The notes under the pieces: model-generated | Told to the model about the DNA's origin: nothing | Databases searched by the model: none | The model's input: the letters and a program-made list of their open reading frames with translations, nothing else | Position numbers and translations under genes: made by a program | Virus record (IMG/VR): IMGVR_UViG_3300044960_000508 | Location: 1-46,760 of that record | DNA length: 46,760 nt | Direction: 5' to 3' (one strand) | Source: a virus | Shown: positions 18,595-43,711 of the stretch, one piece after another | Layout: each line of letters begins with the position of its first letter | Numbering within the stretch: position 1 is the first letter of the stretch

Positions 18595-18648
18595 CGCAGT
18601 AAATAGAATTACCTATCTATTCGTAGGTAGGCATTTCTACTTACTGCG
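18595..18648. other. Candidate phage attachment site (attP) for the serine integrase
   Basis: A 54-bp imperfect palindrome has its centre between 18621 and 18622, with 21 of 27 base pairs matching. The outer arms are CGCAGTAAATAGAA and TTCTACTTACTGCG and the inner arms are TACCTA/TAGGTA. Size, symmetry and position at the 3' end of the integrase gene (it includes the stop codon) match attP sites of large serine integrases, which have inverted half-sites around a 2-bp crossover. It lacks a U-tract, so it is not an obvious terminator. Confidence 0.6.
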
Positions 18649-20148
18649 CGACTCCGCGAGCAGCACGAACGGCTCATTCCATTGCGGCGTTCCGATGACA
18701 TCGTCCGTGATTGGGACAGACCGAAAGAGCAAACGCATCAACTGATTCAACTGGTTCGGCGCAATCTCCGCACTCGCACGCAGGGCAGTTTGCAAATGCT
18801 CCACGAGGTCGCGGGCGGTCTCGAACGTGAACGTCGGACGCGGCGGCGGTGTCGGCGTCGGCAGCGCACGCAGTTCGGACTCGATTTGATTTTTGTAAAC
18901 GCGGAATTGTTCACGCGAAATGTCGCCGTCGGCGCACATCTGCTCATAGCCGCGCAATCGCTGTTCGAGACGCTCGCGGTGCTGGCGAACATCCAGCGCG
19001 GGCAGCGAGTCACGCGGCGTGACGATGCGGCGAGCAATGTCGTCCTTGTCCGCGTCGGACAACTCGTCGAGAAAATCCAAGTGACGCCAGATTTGAGAAT
19101 CAACTTTCCATGCGCTGATGTAGGCGCGGCGCACCTCGCATAATGTGCCGGGCGGATGAAAATACAAACGCTCCAGCCCGTCGGACATCTTGTAACCGCG
19201 TGCCGCGCGCAGCGTCGTCGTACGATATTTCAGACCGCAGTAACCGCAGACGAGAACGCCGCGCAATAGCAGCGGCGGATATTTCAATGCGCGGTGATTG
19301 GATTTGCGCCATGCGCGTTTGGCGCGGGTCTCGACGACGCGGGCATAGAGAGACGGGTCGAGGAACGGTTTGTATTTTTCGATTTTGCGGATGACGTTGT
19401 GAATCGTGCGCGGCGAAATGTTCGGATTGCGCGTGCCCTTGCGCGTCAGCCACGTGATGCCGCGCCGACGCAGTTCTGCCGCAATGCGTTCGCAGCCCAT
19501 CTCATGGTCCGTGTAGAGTTCACAGACGAGCACGATGGTCGGGAAATCATCCGTCGTCGTCCAAACGACGTTCGGCACTTTGCCGCTCCGGCGCAGTCCC
19601 ATCGGCTCGATGTGCGAAAAATACACGTCGAGGTCGCGGAGTTCGGCATAGTGCGCGCGTAAACGTTCGCTCGTGATGCGCGATTCATATTCGGCAGCGT
19701 TCGCGTCGTCAATGGCGCGGCGGCGTCCGTCGGCACTGTGCAGGTCTACCTCGCCGCCGCGCGTGCGAATGAGTTTGACGCCGACCGCGTGCAACTGCTC
19801 CGCCTCTTCGAGCATCGCGCGGACGTTGCGAAAGGCGCGGGACGTGTCATACACGACGACGGCAGCCACACGCGGGTCGGTGCGGGCGCGTTCGATGAGC
19901 GCGAGCCAGTCCGGGATGTTGTCGCGTTTGTATGCGGAGTGCAGTCCCTTGTCCGCGTCCTGATAGACATCGCCGCCTTCGGTGTGCGGGCGCGGGTCGC
20001 AGGTCAAACCGAGTTGTTGGATTGTGCGCAGATTGGCTTTGAGTTGGATTTGCGGAGAAATCTCATCGCCTTCGACGCCGGAGAGACGTTGATACGACAA
20101 TGCCAGCGCCGCATCGGGACGGGACAGAATCGTTCTGCGTTTGGTCAT
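18637..20148 (-). CDS. int: Large serine recombinase (integrase)
   Basis: The 503-residue product has the serine recombinase architecture. The N-terminal catalytic domain has YQRLS with the likely nucleophile S23 and YDTSRAFRN as the D-x-x-R-x-x-R-type helix. The recombinase domain follows (about 180-290). A zinc ribbon begins at LRGVLVCGYCG and is followed by a coiled-coil region (about 375-430). It would insert the phage into the host chromosome. Its start overlaps the repressor stop by four bases, so both are expressed together. The candidate attP overlaps its 3' end. Confidence 0.93.
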   Translation of the reverse strand: MTKRRTILSRPDAALALSYQRLSGVEGDEISPQIQLKANLRTIQQLGLTCDPRPHTEGGDVYQDADKGLHSAYKRDNIPDWLALIERARTDPRVAAVVVYDTSRAFRNVRAMLEEAEQLHAVGVKLIRTRGGEVDLHSADGRRRAIDDANAAEYESRITSERLRAHYAELRDLDVYFSHIEPMGLRRSGKVPNVVWTTTDDFPTIVLVCELYTDHEMGCERIAAELRRRGITWLTRKGTRNPNISPRTIHNVIRKIEKYKPFLDPSLYARVVETRAKRAWRKSNHRALKYPPLLLRGVLVCGYCGLKYRTTTLRAARGYKMSDGLERLYFHPPGTLCEVRRAYISAWKVDSQIWRHLDFLDELSDADKDDIARRIVTPRDSLPALDVRQHRERLEQRLRGYEQMCADGDISREQFRVYKNQIESELRALPTPTPPPRPTFTFETARDLVEHLQTALRASAEIAPNQLNQLMRLLFRSVPITDDVIGTPQWNEPFVLLAESRSK

Positions 20149-25655: not shown

Positions 25656-26870
25656 ATGAATCAAAACAATCTCGGCGAACAGACAGACCCAATTCAAAAA
25701 CAAATTGTTTTACTCGACCGCGCCCGCGCAATGCTGGCGGAAGTGCATACCCTCGAACAGGCGCAAGAAATACGCGCGCGGGCGAAGGCGCTGCGCGCGT
25801 ATTTCAACTCGGTCAAATCGAAATACGATTCCGCCAGAGAATCGCAATACTACGCCGCCGAAGTGATGGTGCGCGCCGACTACAAAATGGGCATTCTCCT
25901 CAAAGAAATGAAAGAACACGGGGAGAGACATAATGGGAAAAGAACGAAAAATCTAAATCATGCTCTGGACTCGCACGATGCGAGTCCAGACATTCCTACC
26001 CTCTCTGACTTGGGCATAGGCAAGGATCAGGCGTCACGCGCGATGCAGTTGGCGGAACTGCCTGAATCGGAATTCGAGGCGCACATCGAGGCAGCGCGGG
26101 AAAATGCGTATGAGTTGACGCTGGGAGGGATGCTGCAGCACGCGCGCAACTACCGCAAACAACTAGAACGGGAGGAGACGCGCGAACGGTTAGCCGCCTT
26201 CGGAGAAACGTTAACTGACCAACTGCCCGAAACGGTCACATTGCGCGTCGGAGATTTCCGCGATTGCATGGACGAATTAGAGGACAACTCGGTTGACCTC
26301 ATTTTCACGGACCCTCCCTATGATTGGGACACCGTGCCGCTCTATACGGAATTGGCAAAACACGCCGCGCGTGTTCTCAAACCCGGCGGGCATCTATTGA
26401 CCTACGCGGGGCATTATGCCCTTGCCGAGATCCTTCCCGCGATGAACGCACATTTGCGATATTGGTGGCTCATTGCTCTGAAACATCAAGGCGCGGCGGC
26501 GCGGTTGGCGGGAAAGTATGTGTTCGTGGAATGGAAACCGATTCTTTGGTTTGTCAAGGGCACGCGCGGGGATACGCAATTCGTTGCCGATTTGTTCGAG
26601 TCGCGCGTGCCGGACAAGACCCGACACGGATGGGCGCAAGATGAATCGGAAGCCGCGTATTACATTGATAGGCTCTGCCCGCCGCAAGGGCTAGTCGCCG
26701 ACCCATTTTGCGGCAGTGGAACAACCTTAGCCGCGGCGGCAACGCAAATGCGCCGCGTCTGGGGCTGCGATTTGGACGCGGACAATCTCAATATCGCAAG
26801 GACGGTTATTCAAAATGCTCTTATCGAATCTGCCGGGGCAGCCGCTGGCGCCGCTGCATCCGCAACATGA
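25656..26870 (+). CDS. DNA methyltransferase (N6-adenine or N4-cytosine, beta class) with fused N-terminal domain
   Basis: The 404-residue product has two parts. Residues 1-180 form a helical domain with TLSDLGIGKDQASR, resembling HTH-containing modules of mobile elements. Residues 195-395 are a methyltransferase with the catalytic DPPY at 219-222 and the AdoMet-binding DPFCGSG at 349-355. DPPY before FxGxG is the beta-class order. It would methylate DNA, giving protection from host restriction or from a partner nuclease. Its last 56 bases overlap the next gene, a nuclease candidate. Confidence 0.85.
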   Translation: MNQNNLGEQTDPIQKQIVLLDRARAMLAEVHTLEQAQEIRARAKALRAYFNSVKSKYDSARESQYYAAEVMVRADYKMGILLKEMKEHGERHNGKRTKNLNHALDSHDASPDIPTLSDLGIGKDQASRAMQLAELPESEFEAHIEAARENAYELTLGGMLQHARNYRKQLEREETRERLAAFGETLTDQLPETVTLRVGDFRDCMDELEDNSVDLIFTDPPYDWDTVPLYTELAKHAARVLKPGGHLLTYAGHYALAEILPAMNAHLRYWWLIALKHQGAAARLAGKYVFVEWKPILWFVKGTRGDTQFVADLFESRVPDKTRHGWAQDESEAAYYIDRLCPPQGLVADPFCGSGTTLAAAATQMRRVWGCDLDADNLNIARTVIQNALIESAGAAAGAAASAT

Positions 26871-33313: not shown

Positions 33314-33631
33314 CTATCGAATCCTCGTGCAGCGGATAGCGCGAAGTTCTTTCACGCTCTCCACTGCTACATTGGGCGTCCAGCCATCCGCGCGCGGATT
33401 CGACGCGAGCGGGACGGCGAGGTAAGTTTCGCCTACCGCTGGTCCCGCCCACTTGCCCGGTGCGCCGTCGCGTCCGGTATTATCGGTGACTGCTCCCAAC
33501 GCTTCCAACAACTGGCGCGTCGCGGGATGACCCACGAACGAGCGGCAGTCTGTCAAGTCAGTAGGAAAAGGGACTTCCGCAAAATGGATTGTTGTACCCG
33601 CGAATCCGAGCGGGCTTGAAATGATTACCAT
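33314..33631 (-). CDS. Possible DUF1874-like (AcrIII-1 ring nuclease type) protein, 105 residues
   Basis: The product has a short N-terminal strand, then SFVGHPATRQLLEALG and GETYLAVPLA. DUF1874/AcrIII-1 proteins, which degrade cyclic oligoadenylate made by type III CRISPR systems, have a conserved strand-helix with GH(D/E)ST and a catalytic His (H47 in SIRV1 gp29), here matched by H35. Length is also right. The second motif (R-x-x-E-G) is only loosely present as RADG, so the match is partial. It overlaps the MazG-like gene by seven bases. Confidence 0.4.
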   Translation of the reverse strand: MVIISSPLGFAGTTIHFAEVPFPTDLTDCRSFVGHPATRQLLEALGAVTDNTGRDGAPGKWAGPAVGETYLAVPLASNPRADGWTPNVAVESVKELRAIRCTRIR

Positions 33632-33993
33632 TTTTCTCCTTTCGCGCGCGCGGTGAATTTATCCGTCGCGTCTTTGATGATTGTGTGTGGCGTTGCTGCG
33701 GCATAGAGCCACCACAGCAGCGTCCACGTTTGGGCGACGTAGTAGCCTACATCGCCCCATTCGGCGGCGCGTTCGGCTGGAGAACGCGCCAACAGGACTT
33801 CAAACAATTCCCCGCGTTTCCAGCCGATACGCGGTGCACCCGTTATGTTCCATGCGCAGCGTTCCTGAATGAATAGTTTTCGGAACGCCTGCGCGGCAGT
33901 CGCGGGCGATTCGTTTCGATTTGCCGCGATTTGCCGCGCGGCGCGGCGGAAAGTGTGGCGTGATTTTGTGTTCATGTGTTTCCACTTGCTCAT
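33625..33993 (-). CDS. MazG-like nucleotide pyrophosphohydrolase candidate, about 122 residues
   Basis: The sequence has GELFEVL, twelve residues, then EWGDVGYY. This is the ExxE-x12-ExxD metal-binding signature of all-alpha NTP pyrophosphatases, followed by the helix AQTWTLLWWLYAA and a C-terminal DKFTARAKGE similar to the KFxRR end of MazG. Such enzymes hydrolyse nucleoside triphosphates or alarmones. ATG codons at 33993 and 33975 and a GTG at 34002 are possible starts. It overlaps the DUF1874-like gene. Confidence 0.55.
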   Translation of the reverse strand: MSKWKHMNTKSRHTFRRAARQIAANRNESPATAAQAFRKLFIQERCAWNITGAPRIGWKRGELFEVLLARSPAERAAEWGDVGYYVAQTWTLLWWLYAAATPHTIIKDATDKFTARAKGEKW

Positions 33994-34011: not shown

Positions 34012-34302
34012 TTATACATAGCCGATGACATCGGTATATAGATACCCGATGCCATCTCCGTAGTCGGCGTAAAATTCGCGCCGACCATCAAAATCTACCC
34101 ATTCTTGAATTCCACCGCCTGCACCGCCGCGCGTTCCGTCTTCATCCCAAATAATGGTGAAGCGGCGTGTCAATTTGTATTCATGTTCGCCGTTTCGCCG
34201 CCACCCAAAGGGCTGTTCCTCGACGGCGTACAGCCCACCCGCCGCGCGTGCGGCAGCGTCTGGGGAATCCCAAATGGCTCGTCCATCGCGGGTTTCCCCC
34301 AC
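34012..34302 (-). CDS. Hypothetical protein, 96 residues, start uncertain
   Basis: The product is acidic and aromatic, with YKLTRRFTIIWDEDG and FYADYGDGIGYLYTD. It starts at GTG 34302, or at an ATG at 34316 with a good AAAGGAG site that lies in another frame. A one-base insertion between the two would give a product starting MKRTYVGE. Its leader is a near copy of the leader of the gene at 34823. No family recognised. Confidence 0.55.
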   Translation of the reverse strand: MGETRDGRAIWDSPDAAARAAGGLYAVEEQPFGWRRNGEHEYKLTRRFTIIWDEDGTRGGAGGGIQEWVDFDGRREFYADYGDGIGYLYTDVIGYV

Positions 34303-34323
34303 GTAGTGCGCTTCATTTCCTCG

Positions 34324-34378
34324 TCTCCTTTGCCGCGCTCTTGGCGGCTGAATCTTTATTTGATACTATTGTATCGTC
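34324..34378 (-). repeat. Duplicated leader, copy 1 (copy 2 at 34830-34881)
   Basis: The core GCTGAATCTTTATTTGA and its flanks match copy 2 at 29 of 32 bases (34347-34378 versus 34850-34881). On the reverse strand each copy gives a -10-like box, the core, a short GC hairpin (GCCGC/GCGGC here, GCTGC/GCGGC in copy 2) and AAGGAG. The hairpin change is a compensating wobble. Confidence 0.85.
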
Positions 34379-34829: not shown

Positions 34830-34881
34830 TCTCCTTGCCGCTCTTAGCAGCTGAATCTTTATTTGACACTATTATAGCGTC
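34830..34881 (-). repeat. Duplicated leader, copy 2
   Basis: This is the second copy of the leader described at 34324-34378. Its -10 box is a perfect TATAAT, whereas copy 1 has TACAAT and lacks a clear -35. Confidence 0.85.
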
Positions 34882-34899
34882 ATCGCTACAATTTGTTAA
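34871..34899 (-). promoter_or_regulatory. Promoter of the reverse accessory run
   Basis: TTAACA, 17 bases, TATAAT on the reverse strand. The spacer contains GCGTCATCGCTA, which recurs at 35243-35254 on the other side of the divergent gene. Confidence 0.65.
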
Positions 34900-35832: not shown

Positions 35833-36435
35833 ATGGGCAAGGGCAGCAGTAGCAGAAAGACCAAATCCACTCGGCACAAGAGCGCGGCGCGCGCCTATGA
35901 GACGCGCGTGGTGCCGATTGATTCTGTCCGTCCTCACCCGCGCAATGAGAAATATCATTCGCATCCTGATTCGCAAATTGCGACGTTGGCGGAATCCGTC
36001 GAAACGTTTGACCAATATCGTCCTGTCGTCGTGTGGCGCAATCTGATTGTCGCGGGGCAGGGCGTTTGGCACGGCATGAAACGGGCGGGCGAGACGGAAA
36101 TTGAAATCAAGGACGTATCCCGTTTGCCCGAACGGACCGCGTTGTCGCTCATGTTGACGGACAATTCTCTTGCACAATATTCCGTCACGAACGAGGAGGA
36201 ATTTGCCGCGCTGGTCAAAGAATTGGCAAAAGACGATGAAGTGTTAGCGCGGCTCGCGGTGGGCGAACAAGCGGCGTTGGAACGGCTGCTGAAAACGCGC
36301 GAGAAAATGCCACATCTGCTAGCGCACGGCTTCCGCCTTTGGTCAAAATGCAAACACCCAATCCGTGCGCTTGCAAAATTTCGATGGTGGGTCGTGTCAA
36401 GCTGGTGTCAAATGGATTGTAAGCGTCTGTCGTAA
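35833..36435 (+). pseudogene. ParB-like nuclease-domain protein, apparently truncated at its 3' end
   Basis: Residues 20-130 match the ParB/sulfiredoxin-like domain of phage proteins: VPIDSVRPHPRNEKYH, PVVVWRNLIVAGQGVWHGM and LMLTDNSLAQ. Such domains cleave or bind DNA and are often fused to methyltransferases. From about residue 160 (near 36310) the frame runs antisense through a radical SAM gene and encodes unlikely sequence up to 36435. The gene appears to have lost its original end. Confidence 0.6.
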
Positions 36436-36712
36436 ATGAGAGCATGACCTGTTCGGTAATGCCTGCGGCTTGATATTTTATAGCGTCCTTTTTGAGGTTC
36501 GTTAAAAAATCTTTGCGCGGGATTGCGCCGGCGTCGAATTCTGCGCGTGGCATCTTTAACACAATTGGCACGTAGCAATACGCGCATTTGTGCCCGCAGC
36601 CGCGATAGGGATTCGTCGCGAGCGGTGCATATTCGCCCGCCTGTCCTTGCGGAGCATAGATGATGGAGCAGCCTTTTACGCTTACGCCGTCAGGATTTAG
36701 TTCGACGTTCAT
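36215..36712 (-). pseudogene. Radical SAM protein (SPL-type), truncated
   Basis: The N-terminus has NPYRGCGHKCAYCYVP, the CxxxCxxC cluster that binds a 4Fe-4S centre and S-adenosylmethionine. It continues with LSFTTDAYNPFD and VCILTKGGSRAL, as in spore photoproduct lyase-like and phage-encoded radical SAM proteins. Family members are usually 250-300 residues. Here the match ends near residue 137 and the last 27 residues are antisense to the ParB-like gene. The ATG has AGGAGG upstream and a structured leader. Confidence 0.6.
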
Positions 36713-36906: not shown

Positions 36907-37431
36907 ATGAGACGCACGAAAAGCACGAAACCTACCGCGAACAAACACCAAACGCCGCAGCAGCGCGAAGCGCACTTGGCGAACGTCGCGCGTCTCTATC
37001 TGACCGGTCATTTACAAGTCGAAATTGCTACACAGACGGGCGTCTCGCAGCAGCAGATTTCATACGACCTGAAGGTCTTGCAAAAGCGGTGGCGCGAATC
37101 GTCGGGCGTTGATTTCAACGAAGCCAAGCAGCGTGAACTCGCACGCATAGACAATCTCGAATTGGAGTATTGGCAGGCGTGGCGCGCGTCAAAAGGCGAA
37201 AAGAAAAAACAGTCGGCGGAGAGAAGCGGCGAGCACACCAAAACGCGATTCGAGTCCGAAGTCCGCGAAGGCGACCCGCGCTACTTGCAAGGTGTCCAGT
37301 GGTGCATCGAGCAGCGATGCAAGATTTTAGAAATCGGCATCAAGACGAAGACCGAAATCAGCGGCGAATTGGGAATCAAGGCGTATGTTGGCATCAGCCC
37401 AGACGACTGGGACAAATCCGAAACATCCTAA
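36907..37431 (+). CDS. terS: Terminase small subunit
   Basis: The 174-residue product has an HTH at about residues 30-60 (TGHLQVEIATQTGVSQQQIS) followed by long charged helices, the usual architecture of small terminases. It directly precedes and overlaps the large terminase gene by 47 bases. It would recognise the packaging site on concatemeric or circular DNA. The ATG at 36907 (GTAGGA upstream) is preferred to 36886. Confidence 0.75.
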   Translation: MRRTKSTKPTANKHQTPQQREAHLANVARLYLTGHLQVEIATQTGVSQQQISYDLKVLQKRWRESSGVDFNEAKQRELARIDNLELEYWQAWRASKGEKKKQSAERSGEHTKTRFESEVREGDPRYLQGVQWCIEQRCKILEIGIKTKTEISGELGIKAYVGISPDDWDKSETS

Positions 37432-38701
37432 ATTGCTCTTGCCCTATCAGCCGCTTGATTGGCAGCGTACGCCGTTTCTTGACAAGTCGCCGGTGCTGCT
37501 CTTGACGGGCAGTGCGGGCGGCGGCAAATCGAAACTCGCGGCGGAGAAACTGCACGCGTATTGTTTGAAGTATCCGAACGCGACCGCGATGATGCTGCGA
37601 AAAACACGCGAGAGCATGACCAACAGCACGGTCTTGTTCGTGGAGCGCAGTATCATCGGAAACGACAAACGCGTGACGCATCGTGCGCAGCAGCATCGTT
37701 TTGAGTATGCGAACGGTTCAATTCTGGCGTATGGCGGGATGAAAGATGACGACCAGCGCGAGCAGGTGCGCGGCGTCGGGCAGTCCGGCGGGCTCGACAT
37801 TTGTTGGCTCGAGGAGGCGACGCAGTTCACAGAGGACGATTACAACGAAATCACGGCGCGTATGCGCGGCAATGCGGCATCGTGGCGCCAACTGATTTTG
37901 ACGACGAATCCGGCGAATCCGTCGCATTGGATTTACAAACGCCTCATTCAAGGCGGCGAGGCAAAAATCTTTTACAGCCATGCTGCTGACAATCCGCACA
38001 ATCCGAGCGATTATTTGGCGTCGCTCGACCGCTTGACTGGCGTGCTGCGAGACCGTTTGCGCGATGGGAAATGGGTGCAAGCGGAAGGCGCGGTGTATCC
38101 GCTCTATGACCCGCAGATTCATTTGCTTGACCCGTTCGAGATACCAGCGCGTTGGCGGCGCATTCGTTCAATTGATTTCGGTTATACCAACCCGTTCGTT
38201 TGCCAGTGGTGGGCGTTGGACGACGACGACCGCATGTATCTCTACCGCGAGATTTACATGACGCAGCGCACGGTGGCGGAACATGCGCCGCTGATTCTGA
38301 AACTCAGCGCGAACGAGCGCATCGAACAAACGATTTGCGACCATGATGCGGAAGACCGCGCGACGCTGGTGCAGTGCGGCATTCCGAACGTCGCGGCGAT
38401 GAAAGATGTGACGCGTGGGATTCAGACCGTGACGGAACGATTGAAAATCGCCGGCGATGGCAAACCGCGCATTTTCTTTCTGCGCGGCGCATTGGTGGAA
38501 ACGGACACGCAACTTGTCGCGGCGCACAAGCCGACCTCGACCATCGAAGAACTGGACGGCTATGTGTGGCAGCCGGTGCGCGAAAACAAAGAGGCGAAAG
38601 AAGAACCACTGAAATTGAACGACCACGGATGTGACGCCATGCGCTATGCGGTGATGGGCATGGACGGAATGAACAAGGTGCGTGTCTTGTTTGAGGCGTG
38701 A
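37385..38701 (+). CDS. terL: Terminase large subunit
   Basis: The 438-residue product has Walker A TGSAGGGKS (residues 41-49), Walker B LDICWLEEA with catalytic Glu, coupling motif LTTNP (172-176) and an RNase H-like nuclease domain. The nuclease domain shows SIDFGYTNP, EQTICDHDAED and DHGCDAMRYA for the metal-binding Asp residues. It cuts DNA and powers packaging. Length and order are typical of HK97-like siphophages. Its stop overlaps the portal start. Confidence 0.95.
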   Translation: MLASAQTTGTNPKHPKLLLPYQPLDWQRTPFLDKSPVLLLTGSAGGGKSKLAAEKLHAYCLKYPNATAMMLRKTRESMTNSTVLFVERSIIGNDKRVTHRAQQHRFEYANGSILAYGGMKDDDQREQVRGVGQSGGLDICWLEEATQFTEDDYNEITARMRGNAASWRQLILTTNPANPSHWIYKRLIQGGEAKIFYSHAADNPHNPSDYLASLDRLTGVLRDRLRDGKWVQAEGAVYPLYDPQIHLLDPFEIPARWRRIRSIDFGYTNPFVCQWWALDDDDRMYLYREIYMTQRTVAEHAPLILKLSANERIEQTICDHDAEDRATLVQCGIPNVAAMKDVTRGIQTVTERLKIAGDGKPRIFFLRGALVETDTQLVAAHKPTSTIEELDGYVWQPVRENKEAKEEPLKLNDHGCDAMRYAVMGMDGMNKVRVLFEA

Positions 38702-40818
38702 TGCAGTATTCGATTAAGAACGTAACGCTGTCGCCGCCGTGGCTGTTGGACGCGACCAATGACGGAACGTTTGGTTCGTATCCGCAGCGCTCGCGCATTC
38801 TCAGCGTGCAGGACGCGTATGTGCGTGTGCCGCTTTTTTATCGCGGTCTGCGGTATCGCTGCAACGCGTTGTTGAACTTGCCGCGGCACATTTATAAACT
38901 CAAAAACAAAGACACGGACAATCGCGAAGAAGTCGCGTGGATGTTTCCGGTTGACCTCGACTGGCTCTTGTGGCGTGTGCAAGCCTCCATCTTGCTCGCG
39001 GGTGGCGCACCGATTCTAAAGTTGCGAAACGATGCGCGGCGGGCGACGGGCGGTGCGCCACAAGATTTGCAGTGGCTGAATCCGTTCACGGTCTCGGTGC
39101 GGTGGGACCCAGCATCGAAGAAACGCATCTATACGCAGTCTGGGCAGACGTTGGTTGGCGGGGAGACGCGTATCTGGACGGACGACGACATGATTTTTGT
39201 GCGCGAATATGCGCCGCTCGACGATGTCGGTTACGGCGTTGCCGCGGCGACGACGGCGTTCCAGTCCGCGCGGGTGGCGTTTTCCATTCCGCAGATGGCA
39301 GCGCAGTTTTTCGAGAACGGCGCGATGCCGGTCTCGATTTTGTCCGTCGCCTCGCCATTAGACAAAGACGAACAAGAGCGGCTGCAAGGTTTTTTTCAGC
39401 GCGTGATGGGTGGCGTGCGAAATGCGTTTCGGGTGTTGGCGATTTCGGGCGATGTGAAATTTACGACGACGCAGAATCGCATGAAAGACCTCGCGGCGGC
39501 GGAACTGAAGGACGACGCGCGTAAAGACATTGCGCGGGCGCTGGAGATTCCGGTGACTTTGCTCGATTCGGACGAAACGATGGCGACGGCGGAAATTCAC
39601 ATGCGTTCGTTTTATCTCGACACGGTGATTCCGGCGGCAAAGATGATTGCATCGGCGCTGAATCGGGACTGTCTGAACGCGATGGGCTATACGCTCGAAT
39701 TTGCGCCGCAGGAAATGCCGATTTTTCAAGAGGACGAACAGATGCGCGCGAACGCCTACAAACAATATGTGGACGCGGGCATGGACTCGTTCGTCGCGGC
39801 GGCGGTGCTCGGAATTGATATTCCACAAAACATGCAAGAACTCTGGCGCGACTCTATCAATTTTTCGCGGTGGGGAAACGTCATCGAGGCGGCGCGGCAG
39901 AATCTGGTCTTTCGTGACGAGGCGCGGCGCCTGATGGGACTGGAACCGATTGATACGAATCCGGTCTTTGTCGGCGTGAACGTGCGCGTGAATACGAATA
40001 CTCCCGACAATCCGGTCACTGGCGCGCAAATCGGAAGTGAGTCTCTTGCGCGCACGGCAGAAGAAGCCGTCGCGCGGCAGCCCGAAAGACCGCCAGAGCC
40101 GTCAGATTCTTCCGCTGTGGTGATCGGCGATGCGGATGAGCAGCAGTTGCGGGAGGCGGCACGGCAGCAAAAGAACATTGAATACGCGCAGTTTCGGAAA
40201 TGGCAAAAACATCGGCGCAAGTGGGAGAAACGGCACGGTGCTAATGGTGGGTCGGTTGAATTTGATTTCAAACACTTGGACGAATATGAGCAGCGTGCGG
40301 CGCATTATGAATTAGGACTTGCCATCAAAGATGTGCCCGATGACCAGAAACGCCGTGACCTCGCGTTGGTCTTGATTGCGCTCTTGCGCGCGTATGCCGT
40401 CACGCGGGACACGGACGCGCTGCACGCCGGGATTCGCAATGCTCTTTATGACGCGTACGCGCAGACGGGCGCGACGGACGCGGAGATTTCCGCGATGATG
40501 GATGAGCAAGAGACGTATCTGAACGCATTTCTGCTCGCGGTGGCAGCAGGCGAATTGTCGGCGCGGCAAATCGAGCAGCGGGCGCAAATGTATGCGGCGA
40601 GCGTCACCGCGTTGGCGTCGCGGAGTGCGGTGAATCGTGCGGCAGAGACCGACGACCCCGCGTTAACGTGGCGGATGAACCCGAACGCGGAGCACTGCGC
40701 AGACTGTCTTGCTCTGAACGGTCAAACGCGCAAGGCAAGTGAGTGGAAGGCGGCAAACCTGTATCCGGGTTCGTTACAAACGCAGTGCGGACAGAATTGT
40801 CGGTGTTCGTTGGAGTGA
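38701..40818 (+). CDS. Portal protein fused to MuF-like minor head protein
   Basis: The 705-residue product combines two head proteins that are usually separate. Residues 1-430 match the HK97-type portal. A charged linker follows. The last 300 residues match MuF-like minor head proteins, ending in CADCLALNGQTRK and CGQNCRCSLE, the Cys/Pro pattern of that family. The portal forms the packaging channel, and MuF domains can enter the host with the DNA. The ATG at 38701 overlaps the terminase stop (TGATG). Confidence 0.85.
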   Translation: MQYSIKNVTLSPPWLLDATNDGTFGSYPQRSRILSVQDAYVRVPLFYRGLRYRCNALLNLPRHIYKLKNKDTDNREEVAWMFPVDLDWLLWRVQASILLAGGAPILKLRNDARRATGGAPQDLQWLNPFTVSVRWDPASKKRIYTQSGQTLVGGETRIWTDDDMIFVREYAPLDDVGYGVAAATTAFQSARVAFSIPQMAAQFFENGAMPVSILSVASPLDKDEQERLQGFFQRVMGGVRNAFRVLAISGDVKFTTTQNRMKDLAAAELKDDARKDIARALEIPVTLLDSDETMATAEIHMRSFYLDTVIPAAKMIASALNRDCLNAMGYTLEFAPQEMPIFQEDEQMRANAYKQYVDAGMDSFVAAAVLGIDIPQNMQELWRDSINFSRWGNVIEAARQNLVFRDEARRLMGLEPIDTNPVFVGVNVRVNTNTPDNPVTGAQIGSESLARTAEEAVARQPERPPEPSDSSAVVIGDADEQQLREAARQQKNIEYAQFRKWQKHRRKWEKRHGANGGSVEFDFKHLDEYEQRAAHYELGLAIKDVPDDQKRRDLALVLIALLRAYAVTRDTDALHAGIRNALYDAYAQTGATDAEISAMMDEQETYLNAFLLAVAAGELSARQIEQRAQMYAASVTALASRSAVNRAAETDDPALTWRMNPNAEHCADCLALNGQTRKASEWKAANLYPGSLQTQCGQNCRCSLE

Positions 40819-40984: not shown

Positions 40985-41374
40985 ATTAAAACACTGAAAT
41001 CTTTATCTAGAAAATGAATTAGAACAAGAAAAACGTTAACTAAATAGAACTGCAAAATGATTGCAAAAGAAATGCCTCACTTGATGGTTCAATTGAATTT
41101 TGTGACCGAAATGTCCAGCGTGTGGGTGCGGTTTGCCCGACAAGGACGGTCAAATGTCGTACTGTCAACTTACTGTTGACGTAATTCAATCTATTTGCCG
41201 GAATTGGGCGCAAACTTTGTTGCATTCTTTTTGCAGTCTTATTTAGTCTCGGAATTCTTTTTACAATCGCATAAGGGCAGTCTCGAACGAGAACGCCGCA
41301 ATTTTTTCGGCAGTCACACCGTGAACGCCGCGAGAATTGCGGCGTTTTTTATTTCCGTCATGAGCGGAGGACGT
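40985..41374 (+). other. 390-base AT-rich gap before the capsid gene
   Basis: The gap is much more AT-rich than the head genes around it. A frame is open from 41195 in phase with the capsid gene, but it lacks a good start and reads unlikely protein. A small dyad GTCAAC/GTTGAC is at 41164-41180. The right part holds a terminator-like hairpin. I see no clear promoter. Confidence 0.5.
41292..41350 (+). terminator. Terminator-like hairpin with two competing left arms
   Basis: AACGCCGC (41324-41331) and GCGGCGTT (41339-41346) form an 8-bp stem followed by a run of T. An upstream AACGCCGCAATT (41292-41303) can instead pair with the right arm over 12 bp. The structure ends 25 bases before the capsid start. 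Confidence 0.7.
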
Positions 41375-43711
41375 ATGGACGAAATCAAAGTGGGGGCGCG
41401 GCACAACGCGCAAGATATGCAGTTGATTCAACAAATCCACGACAACGCGGAGGCACTCGGCGCGGTCAATCGAGAAGAGGCAGAGGAAGAACAAGCCGAG
41501 ACCATGGCGCCGATGTGGAATCAAGAAGAAGAGAATCCACAGCCCCGCGCGGTCACGATGAATATGACGATGGCGCGGGCGCAGTCCTACACCGTGCCGA
41601 CAGACACGCTCGCCGGCAAGGCGATTTCTCGTCGTGAGGATGTGAATCCAAAGGAAGGTGAGCGCGAATACGGCGACGAACGATTTGCCGATTCCACAAA
41701 CAACAAATATCCGCTCACAGAGAACGGCGCACTCAGCGAAGAACGAATTCGCGCGGCATGGAATTACATTCACCAAGAGCGCAACCGGAGCAAATATTCC
41801 GCGAGCGAAGTAGCGGAGATTGAAAAACGCATCATCGCCGCGTGGAAGGAAAAGATTGACAAGAGTGGCCCGCCTGCTGCCGAATCGAAAACGGAAACTG
41901 CTGATGGGACGCTCATCAACTTTGGCGGTGCGGTTAAAGCACTCTCGGACAATGAAATCGAAGGGTATCTGGTTCGTTTTGGCAGCGAGACCGAACCGGA
42001 CATTTCCGCGTTCCGCGATTGGTTTCATCCGCAGACCTATTTTGGCAAACGAATGGGGGCAGGCACGGATGTGACATTCAATCACGGTATTCCGCTGCGC
42101 CCCGACTTGGACTGGGCGAGTGACCGACCGATTGGCGAAATCAAATCGGTCACGGCGGACCAATACGGACTTTTGGCGCGCGCCATCATCGAAGCGGACG
42201 AAGAATACCGCAAGGTGATTATGCAGATGGTGCGCGAAGGTAGATTGAAATGGTCGAGCGGTGCGGCGTCGCATCTCGTGAAACGAACCGCGCTGCCGAA
42301 CGGCACGCACCGCATTGACCAATGGATTATTGCAGAAGGCGCGCTCACGCCGACGCCGGCGGAGCCGCGTTTGCCCGCGATTGTCGGGCTCAAAACATTT
42401 TTGGATTGGACAACTCGCCCGATGCAGGAAGGTTCGGTGGGTGCCGAAACCTCCGCCGCGAACACGGAAACGCACACGGCAAGTTCCGAAATCAAAACAG
42501 GAATCACAGCGGAGGAAACAGACATGACTCAAGAACAATATGAGGCTCTGCTCGCGGCAGTGAACAAGCAGAGCGAAGAACTCGCGGCGGTCAAAGCCGC
42601 GTGGAACGCACCGCCGGGCAATGCCGGGGCGCCGGCGGTCTCGGCAGTCGCGCAAAATGCCGCGCCCGCGTTCAACAAAATCCCGCGCGGCGATGACGCG
42701 TTCAAGGCGTTTGATTGGTATCTCAAGTCCGGCGATGCCAGCGGCATTCGCACTGGCGAGGCGTATGAGGAAATGCAGCGAATGCGTCACGCCGACGCAC
42801 TCAAGACCACCTACTCACTCTTGGAAGGCACGCAGTATCAAGGGCAAGAGGCAGTGCCAACCGAAGTGTTGAACCGCATCGTCGAACGCCGTGACCCGCT
42901 CTCGGTGCTGCGCGCAGCAGGTGCGCAAGTGCAGCCCGCCGGCAGCAACTCTCTGGTCGTTCCAATTGAAAAGGCGTCGCCGGAAGTGTTCGTCATCACG
43001 GCGGAAGGCAATGCAATGGACCAGACGACCGTGCAGCCGTTAGACAAACTCACCGCGACGGTCTATATGTTCACGCGCACCGTTCCGATTTCGATTCAAC
43101 TGCTCGAAGACTCGCTTGCGCCCATTGAACCGTGGTGGTCGCGTCGGCTCGCGCGTGCGTGGGCGCTCACCGAGAACAAGTATTTTTGCACCGGCACCGG
43201 TTCTGGGCAGCCGCAGGGTCTCATCACGGGCGGCACGAGCGCCTTTACCAGCGCCTCTGGTCTTGCCTTGTCGGCGGCGGAAGTCGTGAAATTGTATTAC
43301 AGTCTCGCGGCGGAATACCGCGACAACATCGCGTGGGGCATGAGCGGCGCGACGGAAGCGACGATTCGTCAACTCAACGGCACGGCGTTCTTCCCGTTTC
43401 AAGGGAACGGCGGCTACAACGGCGGCGTCGGCGTTGGCGGTCTCGCGCAAGGCACTGGTTGGTTGGTGGACGCGCGTTCGCGCGTGTTCAATGTGGCGGA
43501 CTTTGCATCTATCGGCGTCAACAACAAACCAGTCACCGTGTTCAACGCGGAGGCGGGTTACATGATTGTCGAGCGCAAAGGGCTGACCGTGTTCCGCGAC
43601 CCGTATACGCTCGCGGCGAACGGCGAAGTGAACATTATCGCGTATTTCCGCGAAACTGGCGGCGTGGTCAATCCGTTAGCGGTTCAGTACGTGACGATGG
43701 CATCGGCGTAA
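41375..43711 (+). CDS. Prohead protease fused to HK97-type major capsid protein
   Basis: GGAGG lies four bases before the ATG at 41375. The 778-residue product has three parts. Residues 1-185 are a polar region with LSEERIRAAWNYIHQERN. Residues 190-330 are an S78-type protease (GYLVRFGSETEPDIS, VTFNHGIPL with the likely His, SSGAASHLV with the likely Ser). After a scaffold-like helical linker (about 375-435), residues 440-778 are an HK97-fold capsid protein (RRDPLSVLRAAGAQV, TVPISIQLLEDS, GTGSGQPQGLI). The protease would release the mature capsid during head maturation. Confidence 0.88.
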   Translation: MDEIKVGARHNAQDMQLIQQIHDNAEALGAVNREEAEEEQAETMAPMWNQEEENPQPRAVTMNMTMARAQSYTVPTDTLAGKAISRREDVNPKEGEREYGDERFADSTNNKYPLTENGALSEERIRAAWNYIHQERNRSKYSASEVAEIEKRIIAAWKEKIDKSGPPAAESKTETADGTLINFGGAVKALSDNEIEGYLVRFGSETEPDISAFRDWFHPQTYFGKRMGAGTDVTFNHGIPLRPDLDWASDRPIGEIKSVTADQYGLLARAIIEADEEYRKVIMQMVREGRLKWSSGAASHLVKRTALPNGTHRIDQWIIAEGALTPTPAEPRLPAIVGLKTFLDWTTRPMQEGSVGAETSAANTETHTASSEIKTGITAEETDMTQEQYEALLAAVNKQSEELAAVKAAWNAPPGNAGAPAVSAVAQNAAPAFNKIPRGDDAFKAFDWYLKSGDASGIRTGEAYEEMQRMRHADALKTTYSLLEGTQYQGQEAVPTEVLNRIVERRDPLSVLRAAGAQVQPAGSNSLVVPIEKASPEVFVITAEGNAMDQTTVQPLDKLTATVYMFTRTVPISIQLLEDSLAPIEPWWSRRLARAWALTENKYFCTGTGSGQPQGLITGGTSAFTSASGLALSAAEVVKLYYSLAAEYRDNIAWGMSGATEATIRQLNGTAFFPFQGNGGYNGGVGVGGLAQGTGWLVDARSRVFNVADFASIGVNNKPVTVFNAEAGYMIVERKGLTVFRDPYTLAANGEVNIIAYFRETGGVVNPLAVQYVTMASA

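Follow-up and report, generated by a model that had tools for sequence, protein, structure and literature searches.

The closest described counterparts of the locus analyzed here are the virus-encoded ring nucleases AcrIII-1 and Crn2 (DUF1874, PF08960, STIV_B116-like) and the MazG family of all-alpha NTP pyrophosphohydrolases (PF03819). In the former, H47 of AcrIII-1 likely acts as the general acid (PMC12830947), and replacing H495 of Csx1-Crn2 with alanine abolishes degradation of cyclic tetra-adenylate (cA4) (PMC7293037). Published surveys based on HMMs detected AcrIII-1 in no more than 36 of 28,114 phage genomes (PMC12409355). For the latter, the MazG of cyanophage S-PM2 prefers dGTP and dCTP, and neither binds nor hydrolyses (p)ppGpp (PMC6850273). 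We compared with these systems two overlapping genes, P0001 and P0002, in an IMG/VR virus record whose whole stretch of 46,760 bases is referred to below as the window. P0001 appears to belong to a divergent viral group of DUF1874-like proteins, P0002 is likely MazG-like, and the two look like adjoining accessory genes rather than a new two-part system.

The window represents a temperate tailed phage, with genes for a serine integrase, terminase, portal and major head protein (Table 1). Flanked by forward-strand genes, a cluster of five reverse-strand open reading frames runs from 34823 to 32813 in the order P0005, P0004, P0002, P0001, P0003. The first-pass annotation had placed two reverse-strand frames at 33314-33993 with a seven-base overlap and an excisionase-like protein in the same operon; these coordinates and the overlap (ATGGTAA) are exact, and P0003, which carries an HTH_17 domain, starts on the base directly after the P0001 stop (TAG/ATG). 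These reverse-strand frames have codon-usage scores of 0.14, 0.27 and 0.44 bits/codon, compared with 0.06 for the overlapping forward frame. Based on the compact gene order, the overlap, the AAAGGAG upstream of P0001 and the codon scores, the arrangement is therefore an ordinary compact phage operon, probably with translational coupling. A 328-aa forward frame antisense to P0003 and P0001 (32633-33619) is probably spurious, given its low codon score and lack of homology. Elsewhere in the window, a radical-SAM gene on the reverse strand (36215-36712; PF04055, E 9.7e-6) overlaps an opposing forward frame (35833-36435), and its 3' end looks truncated or frameshifted.

Table 1. Coordinates of features in the window; (-) denotes the reverse strand.
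Feature	Position	Strand	Description
Serine integrase	18637-20148		
DNA methyltransferase	25656-26870		
P0003	32813..33313	(-)	166 aa; HTH_17 DNA-binding protein, PF12728 E 1.2e-7
P0001	33314..33631	(-)	105 aa; member of the GHPAT group, remotely homologous to the DUF1874/AcrIII-1 ring nucleases
P0002 end / P0001 start overlap	33625..33631	(-)	7 nt, ATGGTAA
P0002	33625..33993	(-)	122 aa; likely divergent MazG-like (all-alpha NTP-PPase type)
AAAGGAG, Shine-Dalgarno-like, for P0001	33636..33642	(-)	within P0002 gene; 4 nt before P0001 start
P0004	34012..34302	(-)	96 aa; upstream of P0002; no family match
Leader repeat copy 2	34336..34378	(-)	before P0004; 88% identical over 43 nt
P0005	34407..34823	(-)	138 aa; first gene in the cluster; no family match
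Leader repeat copy 1	34839..34881	(-)	-10-like element and leader; before P0005
Promoter-like TTAACA-17-TATAAT	34871..34899	(-)	upstream of P0005; a consensus match only (11/12)
Terminase	37385-38701		
Portal	38698-40818		
Major head protein	41195-43711		

Queried alone, neither P0001 nor P0002 returned anything meaningful from Pfam, PHROGs, NCBIfam, PADLOC or PDB sequences. Even at E<=10, PF08960 did not match P0001 in a genome search, nor did PF03819 and PF12643 match P0002. The earlier labels of a ring nuclease-like and a MazG-like protein thus fail in simple family scans, but both gain support from profile comparisons with shuffle controls, so that the guesses about fold hold at the level of remote homology.

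For P0001, tblastn gave a weak match in Moorella phage MTATph1 (E 0.6) with GHPATR..EsLGAV in common, and the Moorella protein led in turn to a relative in a Parageobacillus phage (60% identity). Profile scans added further relatives on viral contigs (L007-L010) and on a MAG contig (L011). Together they form a small, coherent group of seven members from Moorella and Parageobacillus phages and environmental viruses, termed GHPAT after its motif, to which P0001 aligns with P 2.6e-7. No match to P0001 was found on the plasmids searched, and a survey of 392 genomes from the phylum of the L011 MAG revealed no DUF1874.

PF08960 matches three of the seven GHPAT members (best E 1.3e-4); in a whole-record search one member reached E 1.7e-5 and 21.8 bits, under the curated cut-off of 26 bits. 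In comparisons between profiles, DUF1874 was represented by 12 annotated or matched proteins from archaeal viruses and from phages of Fusobacterium, Microcystis, Thermoanaerobacterium, Hydrogenobaculum and Vibrio. Aligned with hhalign, the GHPAT and DUF1874 profiles gave a probability of 93.9 (P 1.5e-7, score 45.1), while none of 200 column-shuffled controls did as well (best 21.1). P0001 by itself also scored better against DUF1874 than all 200 of its shuffles, and the sole match of the GHPAT profile among PDB sequences was AFV3-109 (E 0.015). Matches of P0001 to designed SAKe proteins in the PDB were discarded as chance, low-complexity hits. When the predicted structure of P0001 (pLDDT 70) was compared with 454 aligned chains, five of the six entries at Z>=2 were DUF1874 ring nucleases, namely AFV3-109 (2j6b), AcrIII-1 (6scf, 2x4i) and Csx1-Crn2 (8y7f, 8y7g); each Z is weak (3.2 at most), and the weight of this modeled comparison lies in its consistency. 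Remote homology of the GHPAT group, P0001 included, to the DUF1874/AcrIII-1/Crn2 ring nucleases is thus well supported at the sequence level.

Like AcrIII-1 and Crn2, P0001 is a small, virus-encoded alpha/beta protein of about 105 aa with the same predicted strand pattern and a GHxAT motif. The histidine of this motif (H35) aligns with the catalytic histidine of the known enzymes (H47 in AcrIII-1, H495 in Csx1-Crn2) and is invariant across the seven GHPAT members. However, the group has GHPAT where classical members have GH[E/Q/D]AT, its relatives sit in tailed phages of thermophilic bacteria, and the Asn-Arg motif of classical DUF1874 is absent throughout. The R..EG loop is also altered: other GHPAT members have R..DG, whereas P0001 has PRADG, in which R80 and D82 lie near the motif but the arginine is displaced by one residue from its place in classical members. 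These losses, together with the RefSeq annotation of classical DUF1874 members as 'DNA binding protein', speak for P0001 as a binder rather than an enzyme, one that would sequester cyclic nucleotides or bind nucleic acid. Since the catalytic histidine is kept in every member, we consider such a role rather unlikely. For P0001 as an active ring nuclease that cleaves cA4, the residues kept and lost leave the chances about equal on either side.

P0002 contains the motif E62xxE65-x12-E78xxD81, which fits the MazG metal-binding pattern ExxE-x12-28-ExxD with all four predicted acidic ligands in place, and which has a 0.5% chance of arising in composition-matched shuffles. When aligned to a profile built from four MazG-type proteins of terminase-related viruses (three of the proteins exceed the Pfam cut-off, one does not), P0002 scored 29.7, compared with 17.0 for the best of 200 shuffles and 16.3 for the next of the 187 open reading frames in the window. 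Its best single match is the MazG of one such virus (G047), over ELFEVL..SPAERAAEWGDVGYY, and the likeness extends to the helix following the motif. Therefore, based on the outlier score and the motif, P0002 is likely MazG-like. It nevertheless falls below every family threshold, and its alignment to MazG covers the second half only, the N-terminal half being unalignable. P0002 is also an ORFan: apart from one near-identical viral contig, no relative was found in the phage collection, in two scans of viral contigs or in 48 terminase-related viral records. Such features, along with the missing Pfam match, might instead indicate a helical phage protein whose motif is degenerate or due to chance; given how clearly P0002 stands out from the window's other frames and from its shuffles, and the complete set of acidic ligands, we regard this alternative as rather unlikely. 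The model of P0002 is all-helical, but at pLDDT 55 it is uninformative and gave no meaningful structural match; a Foldseek search with it was set aside as meaningless.

The first-pass annotation had further proposed that the two proteins act as one coordinated unit to clear away nucleotide alarm signals. In such a unit, P0001 would cut cyclic nucleotides and P0002 would jointly remove the linear products or alarmones. In principle both families act on nucleotides, the two genes overlap in one operon, and the Moorella phage relative lies near a macro-domain gene. However, the P0001-P0002 pair is found only in this phage and in a contig 99.98% identical to it, and is not conserved elsewhere. At the six other GHPAT loci the neighbors include neither a P0002 relative nor a recognizable MazG, and at the 12 classical DUF1874 loci no neighbor is annotated as MazG, most being hypothetical; a recognizable MazG neighbor is thus missing from all 18 other loci. 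Consistent with this, PF03819 found no match in the 11 whole viral or phage records bearing a DUF1874-type gene at these loci, while it matched in 14 of 14 control genomes; the negative is weakened because PF03819 misses P0002 as well, and an equally divergent MazG in those records could escape it. The proposed role of MazG as a destroyer of alarmones also sits poorly with the cyanophage enzyme described above. Because the pair is confined to one phage, the two genes look like neighboring accessory genes, and a coordinated unit seems very improbable; co-location is the sole support for a joint anti-alarm action.

A still more elaborate version can be envisaged, in which GHPAT is an unrecognized viral ring-nuclease branch with changed specificity (e.g., for another cyclic oligonucleotide), and in which the MazG-like enzyme of this phage is coupled to it and disposes of the linear products or of related nucleotides. 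We consider this highly speculative and very unlikely, and the MazG pairing adds little unless the enzymes cooperate.

The surroundings of two GHPAT relatives deserve description in their own right. In Moorella phage MTATph1 (L004:2015-2467), the second gene ahead of the GHPAT gene encodes a macro-domain-like protein (PF01661 at E 6e-4, which is below the cut-off). Genes for a Doc-like toxin and a DprA-like protein are close by, and this neighborhood is possibly a counter-defense island directed at nucleotide signals. In Parageobacillus phage JGon-2020a (L005:3476-5478), the GHPAT gene, like P0001, is followed by a gene for an HTH protein (HTH_59, E 3.3e-15), and then by one for a 480-aa protein that carries a DUF2325 domain at its C terminus.

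The promoter-like site upstream of the cluster partly coincides with another such site, which lies on the forward strand at 34863-34892. The two copies of the leader repeat span from the -10-like element to the Shine-Dalgarno sequence; shuffles yield no such pair, and the repeat is confined to this phage and its near-identical contig. Conserved leaders have been used to spot early anti-defense genes (PMC11065993). Right after copy 2, an ATG at 34316 opens a 48-aa frame out of frame with P0004 (GTG at 34302), possibly a small leader ORF or a frameshift. As in acr-aca operons, an HTH gene here comes directly after a probable anti-defense gene and shares its strand. By this analogy P0003 is probably the regulator of the operon, although it is not a recognized Aca. 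The promoter-like site, the leader repeat and the HTH gene fit an accessory anti-defense operon without proving it.

Taken together, we hypothesize a five-gene accessory operon of a temperate tailed phage that would be transcribed on the reverse strand from a promoter near 34880 toward 32813. P0001 would most likely form a homodimer that binds cA4 and cuts it with H35 as the general acid, which may blunt a putative type III CRISPR alarm of the host. P0002, as a divergent MazG-like pyrophosphohydrolase, would most likely act on (d)NTPs or altered nucleotides, independently of P0001. P0003 would most likely be the regulator of the operon, a part that Aca proteins play for acr genes. The operon would thus most likely combine a probable gene of the anti-CRISPR type with a gene of nucleotide metabolism and a regulatory gene; the explanation as a whole is, in our judgment, about as likely as not.

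Judged by its profiles, GHPAT is a divergent branch of the known ring-nuclease superfamily. This branch keeps the catalytic histidine yet falls under the Pfam model, which suggests that phage ring nucleases are undercounted, and its members offer a compact protein set for probing specificity for cA4 or for other molecules.
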